Virus record (IMG/VR): IMGVR_UViG_3300019881_000002
Coordinates: 1-46,359 of that record
Source of the DNA: a virus
Strand: one strand, 5' to 3'
Length of the DNA: 46,359 nt
Positions within the stretch are counted from its first letter, which is position 1. Each line of letters starts with the position of its first letter. A model generated the notes under the pieces. It was not told where the DNA came from, did not search any database, and worked only from the letters and a program-made list of their open reading frames with translations. This document shows, in pieces, positions 2,272 through 45,843 of this stretch. Made by a program: the position numbers and the translations under genes.

Positions 2272-2709
2272 ATGGCGTACGCGACGGTGGAGGACCTGCC
2301 CGGCGTGCTGGGCTATCCGGCCCCGGCCAACGGGCAGGTCCTCCTCGATCGCGCCAGCCGCGACATCGACCGGGCGATCCAGTGCGCCGTCTACGACACC
2401 GACGACCAGGGCCTGCCGACGCTCGCGGCGATCGTCACGGCATTGAAGCAGGCCACGCTTGAGCAGGTCGCCTACCAACTGGAGATCGGCAACACGGACG
2501 GCATCGCCCATGGTCTCCAGTCCGGCGTGCCCTCGGGCAGCTCGGCGGGCCTCGTGGACCTGTCCCGTGGACCGTCCACGGGCGGCGCGACGGTCGATCA
2601 GCCCTGGCTCGGCGACCAGCCCCGGCACATCCTGCGGGCCGCCGGCCTGCTCGGTCAGGAACCGCAGGTCGGCGACGTCAACTCGACGTGGATCTGGATC
2701 ACCGCGTGA
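2272..2709 (+). CDS. Head-tail connector protein
   Basis: 145 residues. The start MAYATVEDLPGVLGYP followed by the helical segment DRASRDIDRAIQCAVYDTD is typical of gp6-like head-tail connector (adaptor) proteins, which bind the portal ring and link it to the tail. SD-like GGAGG lies just before the ATG (ggaggctaacg). It ends in a GTGA overlap with the next gene. Assigned from sequence pattern and position between the capsid and tail tube genes. Confidence 0.75.
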   Translation: MAYATVEDLPGVLGYPAPANGQVLLDRASRDIDRAIQCAVYDTDDQGLPTLAAIVTALKQATLEQVAYQLEIGNTDGIAHGLQSGVPSGSSAGLVDLSRGPSTGGATVDQPWLGDQPRHILRAAGLLGQEPQVGDVNSTWIWITA

Positions 2710-3245
2710 GCCGCAGGGATATCCGGCAGGGCATCGCGGCCTACTTCGGCGGGTCGACGGTCACGGCGGGCGGCTGGTATCAGCCGACGCCGCTCGTCGC
2801 GCTCGGACTCGCGGGCGTCCGGGCCTACTACGACGACCGCATCAAGGACCACGAGTACTTCACCGGACTCGCCGCCGGCTCCCGTACGGGTGCGCTGATG
2901 TGCGTGCACCTGGACGACGACACGGAGAAGCGCCTCGCGATCGGCGGCATCCTCGACGCCCCGTACAACGTGACGCTGTACCTGTTTCTGCTGACCCGTA
3001 CGCCCTCGATGGAAGACGCGCAGGCGGACCGCGACGACCTCGTGCAGGCCGCCAGGGACCTCGTGCGCGCCGACCCGACCCTGGGCATGGGCATCAACTC
3101 CGACGCCGCCCAGAAGGTCACGCAGGCGGGCGAGGGCGACGGTGGGATCCGTACTGCTACGCCGCTGCCCTACTTCGAGCCTCCGGCGACCACGCGACAG
3201 AACGCGGTGATCAGCTTCACCGCCAACACCTACCTGGCGGGATAG
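2706..3245 (+). CDS. Probable tail terminator / head-tail joining protein
   Basis: 179 residues if started at the GTG that overlaps the previous stop; an in-frame ATG at 2688 would add six residues. The start SRRDIRQGIAAYFGG, the central FEPPATT... strand-rich region and its length suit the minor tail or tail-terminator proteins found between connector and tail tube genes, but no diagnostic motif is seen. It is followed by one spacer-free junction to the next ATG (TAG-ATG). Confidence 0.65.
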   Translation: MSRRDIRQGIAAYFGGSTVTAGGWYQPTPLVALGLAGVRAYYDDRIKDHEYFTGLAAGSRTGALMCVHLDDDTEKRLAIGGILDAPYNVTLYLFLLTRTPSMEDAQADRDDLVQAARDLVRADPTLGMGINSDAAQKVTQAGEGDGGIRTATPLPYFEPPATTRQNAVISFTANTYLAG

Positions 3246-43537: not shown

Positions 43538-43687
43538 GTGCTCGAACTCATCTGCTACCTCGTGGCCGTCGTGCTGTTCGTCCTGGCGGCGTTCAGGGTC
43601 ACGACGCGCCCCGTTGACCTGCTGCCGCTCGGGCTCGCGTTCGCCGCGTTCCCGCTGCTGTACGCGGCACTCCAGTCCGTGAACTGA
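43538..43687 (+). CDS. 49-residue membrane protein
   Basis: GTG start with GGAGG six bases upstream. Two hydrophobic stretches (LICYLVAVVLFVLAAFRV; LLPLGLAFAAFPLLYAAL) with a short polar turn. In the head module; function unknown. Similar small membrane proteins are common beside actinophage portal genes. Confidence 0.68.
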   Translation: MLELICYLVAVVLFVLAAFRVTTRPVDLLPLGLAFAAFPLLYAALQSVN

Positions 43688-43689
43688 CC

Positions 43690-43860
43690 ATGCCTCCCGG
43701 TAGCCACTCCTTCAAGTCCAAGAGCCAGTGGCGATGGGCGTTCGCGACCAAGAAGACCTGGGCGCACCGCCATGCGCACGAGACGCCGGGCGGCAAGAAG
43801 GTCCGGTACCGGCGGCTGCCGACCCGCAAGAGGGCACCTGGAGCGAGGAGTGCGCGATGA
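43690..43860 (+). CDS. 56-residue basic protein
   Basis: Reads MPPGSHSFKSKSQWRWAFAT and continues HRHAHETPGGKKVRYRRLPT. Very rich in arginine, lysine and histidine, so it is probably DNA- or RNA-binding. The FKSKSQWRW(A/F) core recurs in actinophage head modules as I recall. ATGA overlap with the next gene. Confidence 0.68.
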   Translation: MPPGSHSFKSKSQWRWAFATKKTWAHRHAHETPGGKKVRYRRLPTRKRAPGARSAR

Positions 43861-44030
43861 CGCCATGTCCAGCGCAGACCGGGCCGGTTTGGAAGACCGG
43901 CGGCGAGGTGTGCGGCTGCGTCCTTTCGGCTGGTCACGAGACCTCGCCGGACGTCCACGAGCGGGATCACGTGTGCGACTGCGGAGCGTGGTGGATCGAT
44001 GCCGACCGACGCGACCAGCCGGCCGCCTGA
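43857..44030 (+). CDS. 57-residue zinc-binding-like protein
   Basis: ATGA overlap at the start. Cysteine and histidine pattern (CGCVLSAGHETSPDVHERDH, VCDCGAWW) suggests one zinc site. Overlaps the start of the MuF-like gene by 32 bases. Function unknown. Confidence 0.62.
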   Translation: MTPCPAQTGPVWKTGGEVCGCVLSAGHETSPDVHERDHVCDCGAWWIDADRRDQPAA

Positions 44031-45843
44031 GTCCGCCTCGCCGGCCCTCGCCGCCGGTCTCGCCATCGCGGTCACGCAGGTCTACGCCGAAGCCGAGGCC
44101 GCGATCCTCGCCGTCATCACCCTGAATGTCCGAGCGGCTCTGTCCGCACCCGTCCCCGGTGTCGCCCTGGCGGGCCGCTCGGCACCCATTCTCACCGCGA
44201 CGCGACGCGCTCTGGACGACGCTGAGCGCCACGCGGCCACGGTGGTGCCCCGCGTACTCGCCAAGGCCTACGAACGCGGCCACGGTGCCCAGGCGCGCGC
44301 GGGCGCGCAGGCCACACAGAACGTCCTCGAACGTCTCGCCGCTCTCCGGCAGGGCGTACTGCACTGGGTCGGGCAGCTCCTGAACCGCCTCGTCGCCGCG
44401 CTCCGCACCCCGACGCCGCTGCCGATCGCCGGCCACGCCATGCAGCAGGCCGCCGGCCGTGGCATCACCGGCTTCGCCGACCGGCACGGCCGCTCGTACG
44501 GCCTCGACTCCTACGTGCACCAGACCGTGCAGCATCAGGCGGGCCAGGCCGCCATCGACGGCTTCACCGATCGCCTCGCGGACGCGGGCGACGACCTCGT
44601 CATCGTGACCGAGTCCCCGCATCCGTGCCCGCTGTGCGACCCGTGGGAGCACAGGGTGCTGTCGGTCTCCGGCCGTGACCCGCACCGCCCGAGCATGGCG
44701 ACCGCTCGCGAGGCGGGGCTGTTCCACCCGAACTGCTTCCCGGGCGACGTGCTGGTGTCAGCGCCTTCGGGTGTACGCGCCGCGGATTCCCGTTGGTACG
44801 AGGGTGACGTTGTCGTCATCCACACAGCCAGCGGCCAGGAACTGACCGTCACCCCAAATCACCCGATACTGACGCCGGAAGGATGGATCGCTGCGGGCCT
44901 GCTCGTAGTAGGCGATCGCGTCCTTCGCTACGGCCGCGGGGTCCAGCCGGTGGATAGCGTGGGTCCAGGCGATGAGCAGGTTCCAGCCCGCATCGGCGAT
45001 GTATTCGACGCGCTCCGGCAGGCGCTCCCAGTGCCGCCCACTTCGGTGCCAGGCTCCGCCGAACAGTTCCACGGCGACGGGGGCAATGCCGATGTCGAGA
45101 CTGTATTTGCCGACGGCCTGTTGAGGGATTGGGCCGAGCGCGGCGAGATGGGCGGCGATGGCGCGCTCATCGTCGGTGGCTCCAACCTGCGTCTCTTGAC
45201 GGCTGATGGCTCGACGGATGAGTTCATCCTCGGTGCGGGCCACGCCCCTGACGGCGGCGTGAGCGGCGGCGGTGTTCGCGGATCGCTTTGTGCTCGTCAT
45301 CTTGGCGTTGCGGCGGCGCTGGGCCTCGCTCCGGCTGATGCCAGCACCGCGCTTCTTGAGCCACCTGGCGACGAGGGCCTGATTGGTGCCATGGATGGCC
45401 GCGATCTGGGTTTGCGACTCTCCGGCCTGGTATCGCCTGACGAAATCGTCAATGTCGGCGTCCGTGAATTTGCGGCGCACGTGTACAACCTCCAGACGGG
45501 CGACGGCTGGTATGTCGCTAATGGAATTGTAGTGCACAACTGCCACCACACGATCCAGCGCTGGTATCCCGGGTTCGTCTGGCCGCCGCACTCGCTGCAC
45601 AACCTGCCCGGCACCTACGAGGCGACGCAGCGCCAGCGTGACATCGAGCGGCACATCCGGTCCTGGAAGCGCAGGCAGGCTGCCGCCCTCGACGACGTCA
45701 CCAAGGCCAAGGCAGGTGCGAAGGTCCGCGCCTGGCAGGCCGAGCTACGGCACCACCTCGCCGCCGAGGACCTGACCCGCTCCCGCCAGCGCGAGCGCAC
45801 CGACTACGGCCACACGCCGCCCTTCAAGCACGCGCACGGATAG
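43999..45843 (+). CDS. MuF-like minor head protein interrupted by an intein
   Basis: 614 residues as precursor, about 345 after splicing. N-extein residues 1-245 are helical with a C210-P-L-C213 pair; residues 515-614 form the C-extein. The joined exteins read GLFHPN-CHHTIQRWYPGF, the conserved HPNC end motif of MuF/phage minor capsid protein 2, with the cysteine that remains after splicing completing a C-x-x-C...H/C site. This class sits near the portal and can take part in DNA ejection or early infection. The intein sits exactly at the most conserved motif, so loss of splicing would destroy the protein. Confidence 0.88.
   Translation: MPTDATSRPPESASPALAAGLAIAVTQVYAEAEAAILAVITLNVRAALSAPVPGVALAGRSAPILTATRRALDDAERHAATVVPRVLAKAYERGHGAQARAGAQATQNVLERLAALRQGVLHWVGQLLNRLVAALRTPTPLPIAGHAMQQAAGRGITGFADRHGRSYGLDSYVHQTVQHQAGQAAIDGFTDRLADAGDDLVIVTESPHPCPLCDPWEHRVLSVSGRDPHRPSMATAREAGLFHPNCFPGDVLVSAPSGVRAADSRWYEGDVVVIHTASGQELTVTPNHPILTPEGWIAAGLLVVGDRVLRYGRGVQPVDSVGPGDEQVPARIGDVFDALRQALPVPPTSVPGSAEQFHGDGGNADVETVFADGLLRDWAERGEMGGDGALIVGGSNLRLLTADGSTDEFILGAGHAPDGGVSGGGVRGSLCARHLGVAAALGLAPADASTALLEPPGDEGLIGAMDGRDLGLRLSGLVSPDEIVNVGVREFAAHVYNLQTGDGWYVANGIVVHNCHHTIQRWYPGFVWPPHSLHNLPGTYEATQRQRDIERHIRSWKRRQAAALDDVTKAKAGAKVRAWQAELRHHLAAEDLTRSRQRERTDYGHTPPFKHAHG
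44758..45480 (-). CDS. Homing endonuclease encoded antisense inside the intein (HTH + Vsr/EDxHD-like)
   Basis: 240 residues from a GTG with GGAGG eight bases upstream. Residues 5-45 are a helix-turn-helix (FTDADIDDFVRRYQAGESQT, IAAIHGTNQALVARWLKKRG) and a basic linker follows. The nuclease part has Glu105 (DDERAIAAHL), the strand pair QQAVGKYSLDIGIAPVAVEL with Asp129 and Glu138, then GGAWHRSGRHWERLPERVEY (His145) and DAGWNLLIAW. This is the pattern of Vsr/DUF559-related EDxHD homing endonucleases. The ending SFRRQYRVIWGDGQFLAAG also looks family-like. The gene lies wholly within the 807-bp intein and its codons are in register with those of the sense strand. It should cut intein-free MuF alleles. 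Confidence 0.85.
   Translation of the reverse strand: MRRKFTDADIDDFVRRYQAGESQTQIAAIHGTNQALVARWLKKRGAGISRSEAQRRRNAKMTSTKRSANTAAAHAAVRGVARTEDELIRRAISRQETQVGATDDERAIAAHLAALGPIPQQAVGKYSLDIGIAPVAVELFGGAWHRSGRHWERLPERVEYIADAGWNLLIAWTHAIHRLDPAAVAKDAIAYYEQARSDPSFRRQYRVIWGDGQFLAAGCVDDDNVTLVPTGIRGAYTRRR
45489..45493 (-). promoter_or_regulatory. Ribosome binding site of the antisense endonuclease
   Basis: GGAGG on the minus strand, eight bases before the GTG start (45480-45478). On the plus strand these bases belong to Asn252-Leu253-Gln254 of intein block F (VYNLQT), so splicing sequence and translation signal share the same DNA. Confidence 0.75.
45526..45531 (-). promoter_or_regulatory. -10 promoter candidate of the antisense endonuclease
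   Basis: TACAAT on the minus strand is the exact complement of the ATT-GTA codons for Ile265-Val266 in intein block G. It would start a transcript about 38 bases upstream of the GTG. No good -35 hexamer is seen at 16-19 bases, so the promoter may be weak or activator-dependent. AT-ending codons are concentrated here (6 of the last 10 intein codons), against the bias of the genome. Confidence 0.45.

Follow-up and report, generated by a model that had tools for sequence, protein, structure and literature searches.

A phage capsid gene in the viral record IMGVR_UViG_3300019881_000002 (IMG/VR) is interrupted by an intein, and the strand opposite this intein holds an open reading frame in the same codon register. 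The locus thus raises the question of whether the minus-strand frame is a gene of its own and whether its start signals are written into the codons that specify the C-terminal splicing motif of the intein. In what follows, the window means the whole stretch of 46,359 nucleotides analyzed here. From comparisons of sequences, we consider it highly probable that the locus is a two-strand mobile element, with an intein on one strand and a Vsr-like homing endonuclease gene antisense to it that has its own expression signals.

The host gene (43999–45843, plus strand) encodes a minor capsid or head morphogenesis protein (MuF-like), as indicated by its matches to Phage_min_cap2 (E = 6e-28) and to the head protein families phrog_12049 and phrog_581 (E about 1e-47). 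The intein of 269 amino acids (44734–45540, plus strand) begins with Cys1 at 44734 (HPN/C) and ends with the terminal Asn at 45538–45540, directly followed by Cys+1 at 45541. It shows block B (TPNHP), block F (HVYNL) and the C-terminal sequence VANGIVVHN ahead of Cys+1. The intein C-terminal model TIGR01443 scored 23.6 bits against a cut-off of 15.6, and the scores of TIGR01445 and Pfam Intein_splicing on the window intein were both under their cut-offs. By its Cys1, block B His, C-terminal HN and Cys+1, the element is an intein, and its splicing is predicted. The insertion point is common to the annotated phages and most of the scanned contigs, i.e., one gene family with HPN/C or a close equivalent. 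Among 10 viral contigs whose host genes were scanned, 8 matched the minor-capsid or MuF family, and the host genes of the other two (L045 and L077) matched the intein model only.

The antisense gene (45480–44758, minus strand; 240 amino acids, GTG start) was delineated from the reading frame, the codon register and an AlphaFold model. Its codons are the exact reverse complements of intein codons throughout, and both its start and its stop lie inside the intein; the TGA stop (44760–44758, minus strand) stands opposite a sense Ser codon, TCA, close to the N-terminus of the intein. A tblastn search with the antisense protein returned 95 phage records, chiefly from Salmonella, Pseudomonas and Gordonia phages, and profile scans added viral contigs, one Micromonospora genome and Firmicutes assemblies. 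Note that sub-alignments were used for scanning the collections, the full 22-member alignment being too divergent. In total, 84 loci were collected from phages of Actinobacteria and Gammaproteobacteria, viral contigs, and Micromonospora and Firmicutes genomes. The opposite, codon-aligned sense frame was stop-free over the profile match in all 84, and in this search the antisense gene was found solely inside inteins. The antisense protein ranges from about 220 to 335 amino acids across loci, partly owing to an extra N-terminal HTH-like segment, and this variation possibly reflects different target sites. In L010 the antisense gene is broken across two frames (reading frames at 1143 and 2149), so that this locus is a possible decaying or mis-sequenced copy. 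In the annotated phages (L001–L033), mostly the capsid gene alone is annotated here, and the antisense endonuclease gene is generally absent from the annotation.

The length of the antisense frame was left out of the evidence, because long open frames are expected in the codon-aligned antisense frame of GC-rich DNA. Codons that mirror sense stops (TTA, CTA and TCA) occurred once in the antisense genes, against 262 expected. In 16 disjoint pairs of loci, differences in the gene body fell at sense codon positions 1, 2 and 3 in the numbers 987, 408 and 688, indicating that the antisense wobble position is the most variable one there; the splicing ends of the same pairs showed the normal sense order (84/29/130 and 33/16/105). 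Amino acid changes in these pairs numbered 807 in the antisense protein and 1145 in the sense protein. In the gene body of the compared sequences, these counts place the constraint on the antisense frame. Taken together, the comparison shows, at the level of sequence, that the antisense frame behaves as a conserved and selected protein gene. A short stretch at 45067–45081, where sense F-H-G-D-G stands opposite antisense P-V-A-V-E, looks constrained on both strands in the window as well as in its homologues. Conservation of the sense residues F-H-G-D-G is 0.87–0.95, with 0.76 for the final G, and exceeds what the opposing P-V-A-V-E needs.

The predicted structure of the window antisense protein reached a pLDDT of 91.1 when modeled by AlphaFold with 39 relatives, and 63.6 with 5 sequences. 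In VIA-align, the nearest solved folds were Vsr (Z = 9.8) and I-Bth0305I (Z = 8.5); the latter was also the top Foldseek match, with an E value of 0.008 by Foldseek itself. Sequence profiles matched 3hrl (E = 2.5e-7) and 3r3p (E = 4.7e-4). The Vsr-like core, supported by VIA-align, the profile and invariant columns, spans residues 99–226 (44803–45186, minus strand). Y126, D129 and E138 (the last lying within the P-V-A-V-E stretch above) are invariant across the family and E105 is almost invariant. For the HD part of the EDxHD motif, a candidate is His145, the majority residue at its position (71% of members). Ahead of the core, residues 1–57 (45310–45480, minus strand) form a helix-turn-helix region (HTH_28, E = 3e-6), and HTH families match many members, so that an additional DNA-binding region is predicted. 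The antisense protein, as modeled, thus has a Vsr-like catalytic fold with conserved acidic residues, and its nuclease activity is predicted.

We now turn to the start signals. The earlier note had placed three of them on the minus strand of the window, and inspection of the letters agreed with it to the base: a -10 element TACAAT (45531–45526), a Shine-Dalgarno GGAGG 8 nt from the start (45493–45489) and the GTG start (45480–45478). With Cys1 at 44734, these are, as it had claimed, the complements of Ile265-Val266 (ATT GTA), Asn252-Leu253-Gln254 and His249 (CAC), respectively. The pattern TACAAT-N32-GGAGG-N8-RTG occurred once in the 46,359 bases and in 0 of 100 dinucleotide shuffles, although it was defined post hoc and therefore yields no unbiased p value. 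When the intein residues were fixed and the sense codons redrawn at local usage, the window -10 was better than chance (p = 0.011); the Shine-Dalgarno was no better than chance (p = 0.34), since GC-rich usage often yields CTC CAG regardless. Because only the -10 stands above chance in the window, the case rests on the family and not on the window by itself. The window -10 is without the TG of an extended -10. The Tyr codon at about 45511–45513, at offset 11 counted from the antisense start and shortly past the point where transcription is predicted to begin, belongs to a position at which TAT is over-used.

In all 55 non-redundant loci, the antisense start codon is the complement of the His adjoining intein block F; this figure is partly given by construction, as ATG and GTG always mirror His, and its informative part is the fixed place beside block F. 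The Shine-Dalgarno usually complements Asn-Leu(-Gln), and a TAYAAT-like -10 usually complements Ile-Ile/Val before HN/C; 25 of these loci have the hexamer at position -51. With the sense residues fixed and codons randomized, 64% of the 55 loci had a -10 at p < 0.05 (combined p = 2e-28), whereas 0.9% of comparison windows elsewhere in the same loci had a significant one. Note that the scoring weights for the -10 were chosen by us and that the combined p value (Fisher) ignores shared ancestry; the disjoint-pair tests alone avoid kinship. Members of at least 60% GC showed an excess of A/T third bases at the start His, at one Tyr (offset 11; 48% vs. 16% expected) and at offsets 16–18, which are the -10, and showed no such excess at HN/C or in the extein. 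Members below 60% GC had the excess also at some other codons, e.g., offsets 5 and 6. The Leu codon of the Shine-Dalgarno was CTC in 19 of 21 members below 60% GC (3.4 expected) and in 21 of 25 above 60% GC (9.6 expected). In 23 disjoint pairs, synonymous differences relative to expectation were 0.30 at the start, 0.30 at the Shine-Dalgarno Leu and 0.75, 0.43 and 0.22 at the -10 codons, most other codons lying at 0.7–1.1. Where loops differ in length, as in L018, the Shine-Dalgarno remains near the start and the -10 near HN/C; the hexamer is shifted by one codon in L036, L063, L067 and L077. A convincing -10 was missing in some members (L006, L017 and L028), and a recognizable Shine-Dalgarno in 5 of the 55 loci.

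As controls, 25 non-redundant inteins without the antisense gene were used. None of them had a -10 at p < 0.05, CTC was found at 3 of 12 Leu codons, and the His before block F, which is present in most family members, was found in 0 of 25. Three controls looked at first as if they had the antisense gene; of these, L090 and L096 proved to be the same loci as L079 and L080, and L174 was a weak match of 41 residues only. The comparison with relatives shows, as judged from codon choice, that the codons of the intein C-terminal splicing region appear to be selected also as the antisense -10, Shine-Dalgarno and start. The earlier proposal of opposite-strand selection on these codons therefore holds across the family, in codon bias and in synonymous conservation, while the Shine-Dalgarno of the window, taken singly, does not exceed chance; inteins that lack the antisense gene and use the same codons, named beforehand as the finding that would speak against it, numbered 0 of 25.

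The earlier note had further suggested that the cassette could be expressed after insertion anywhere. This suggestion is not supported: matches to a -35 element were not above chance (3.04 vs. 2.77), and the intein is confined mostly to one gene family. A sigma-70 promoter search of the region gave no match, and any -35 would fall in the C-extein, outside the element. In many members the promoter may belong to the extended -10 class (TGNTATAAT); alternatively, it may draw on the C-extein or be weak.

For the two-strand element, the following course of events is proposed. The intein would splice itself out of the phage minor-capsid protein, while RNA polymerase would start on the minus strand near 45519–45520, giving a leader of about 39 nt, and translation would begin opposite the His249 codon. 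The nuclease would then cut intein-less capsid alleles at the HPN/C codons, and repair templated by the intein-bearing copy would spread the whole element. Late expression is usual for capsid genes; a promoter of its own would make the timing of the nuclease independent of that late message, and the nuclease could be switched off once the sense strand is transcribed late. In E. coli phage SZH-1, the extein is 97.5% identical to that of the intein-bearing phage Snoke and the intein is absent exactly at HPN/C. Phage SEW_9 likewise has an empty HPN/C site relative to Snoke, these empty sites being seen in relatives and not in the window's own gene. Empty sites of this precision among close relatives are what homing would leave behind, and count as circumstantial evidence.

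Other explanations of the locus have to be weighed against this one. The antisense frame might be an artifact of a GC-rich open frame together with mirrored conservation of the sense protein. Other long antisense frames do occur nearby in the window, e.g., one of 390 amino acids at 43555–44727, and the codon-aligned relation is the one where mirroring is strongest. However, the antisense frame is open and conserved at GC contents as low as 38–45%, within the gene body the wobble pattern is that of the antisense strand, which by itself already contradicts an artifact, and the product is predicted to adopt a well-structured nuclease fold in which an Asp and a Glu are invariant. We therefore regard this explanation as extremely improbable.

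Two further possibilities accept the gene as real and appear unlikely to us, the former slightly more so than the latter. The AT-rich codons could be left over from a foreign origin or from the function of the intein, the gene being expressed from another promoter or by readthrough; the lack of a -35, the members without a -10 and the movement of the element among phages of differing GC content would fit with this. On the other hand, the AT excess of GC-rich members is limited to the start, one Tyr and the -10 codons and spares HN/C and the extein, synonymous change is lowest at the same places, the bias is opposite (CTC) at the Shine-Dalgarno Leu even in AT-richer genomes, and ordinary inteins are without such bias. 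Alternatively, the nuclease domain could have another role, as a DNA-binding regulator, a defense nuclease or a decayed endonuclease, given that Vsr-like folds serve in repair and further roles; yet all its occurrences in this search were inside inteins, its active-site residues are invariant, and close relatives have intein-free alleles at the exact site, as homing predicts. We thus retain the two-strand homing element as the preferred reading.

A second arrangement of this type was found in the Gordonia phages Lennon, Nordenberg and SchottB (L029–L031), where the intein in the same kind of capsid (MuF) gene has another antisense gene opposite it. This unrelated endonuclease-like gene (2504–3091 of these loci, minus strand) matched phrog_5046 (phage endonucleases; E = 2e-15) and I-MsoI (E = 0.0013), and Pfam LAGLIDADG at only 0.26. 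Between L029 and L031, differences at sense positions 1, 2 and 3 numbered 51, 6 and 16, i.e., mainly at the antisense wobble position, with 15 antisense and 55 sense amino acid changes. TACGAT lies 6 nt ahead of the Gordonia antisense ATG, as in a leaderless promoter. The second, different antisense gene suggests that the arrangement arose more than once. We lean, with somewhat better than even confidence, toward a class of elements in which the splicing domain and the homing endonuclease are two strands of the same DNA. This class would have arisen at least twice, with a Vsr-like enzyme and, in Gordonia, with a LAGLIDADG/HNH-annotated one. A nuclease promoter and ribosome-binding site inside the splicing motif would themselves be hard to lose while splicing is kept and would separate the timing of the nuclease from late capsid expression.

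Several known systems share parts of this arrangement. Conventional large inteins have a LAGLIDADG endonuclease domain in-frame as part of the intein polypeptide; they likewise combine intein and endonuclease and are inserted precisely where the host protein is conserved, whereas here the opposite strand encodes the endonuclease as a protein in its own right. I-Bth0305I, described among group I intron endonucleases, is an EDxHD (Vsr-like) homing endonuclease (PMC3943268; PDB 3r3p). It resembles our protein in the nuclease core, by Foldseek, VIA-align and profile, and in having a separate DNA-binding region, but here the gene is antisense to an intein and has N-terminal HTH repeats. In Didymium nuclear group I introns, antisense His-Cys homing endonuclease genes with a proposed internal promoter also lie opposite their self-splicing element (PMC9548176). 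That element, however, is an RNA intron in rDNA with no second protein opposite the endonuclease, and hence no two-strand protein coding; the host element here is not of the self-splicing RNA type, as it has intein motifs and a frame open through the capsid gene. The ShiLan domain, an HNH endonuclease concealed out of frame within a phage methylase and for which its authors found no ribosome-binding site (PMC11855218), similarly overlaps a frame open through the host gene, but it shares the strand of that gene, differs from it in frame and involves no intein, whereas ours is on the opposite strand and in codon register. T4 I-TevI and other intron endonucleases have their own promoters, middle or late (PMC2988022), so that early timing of the nuclease can here only be hypothesized. 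As in our locus, a promoter within the mobile element uncouples the endonuclease from the host gene, but there the gene is on the same strand as the host gene, in an RNA intron, with no overlap with a splicing protein. Antisense endonuclease genes are already known in group I introns; none in an intein was found in a search of open-access full texts, a scope that does not establish priority.

Intein and homing endonuclease, known as fused domains, appear here face to face on opposite strands, in an arrangement that actinobacterial and gammaproteobacterial phages have conserved and that is seen in Firmicutes too. The arrangement would offer a natural example of antisense coding that runs codon on codon over a long stretch and keeps regulatory DNA within a catalytic motif of a protein. 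A nuclease gene is thereby overlooked when these phages are annotated, and the arrangement is open to testing in ordinary E. coli phages.
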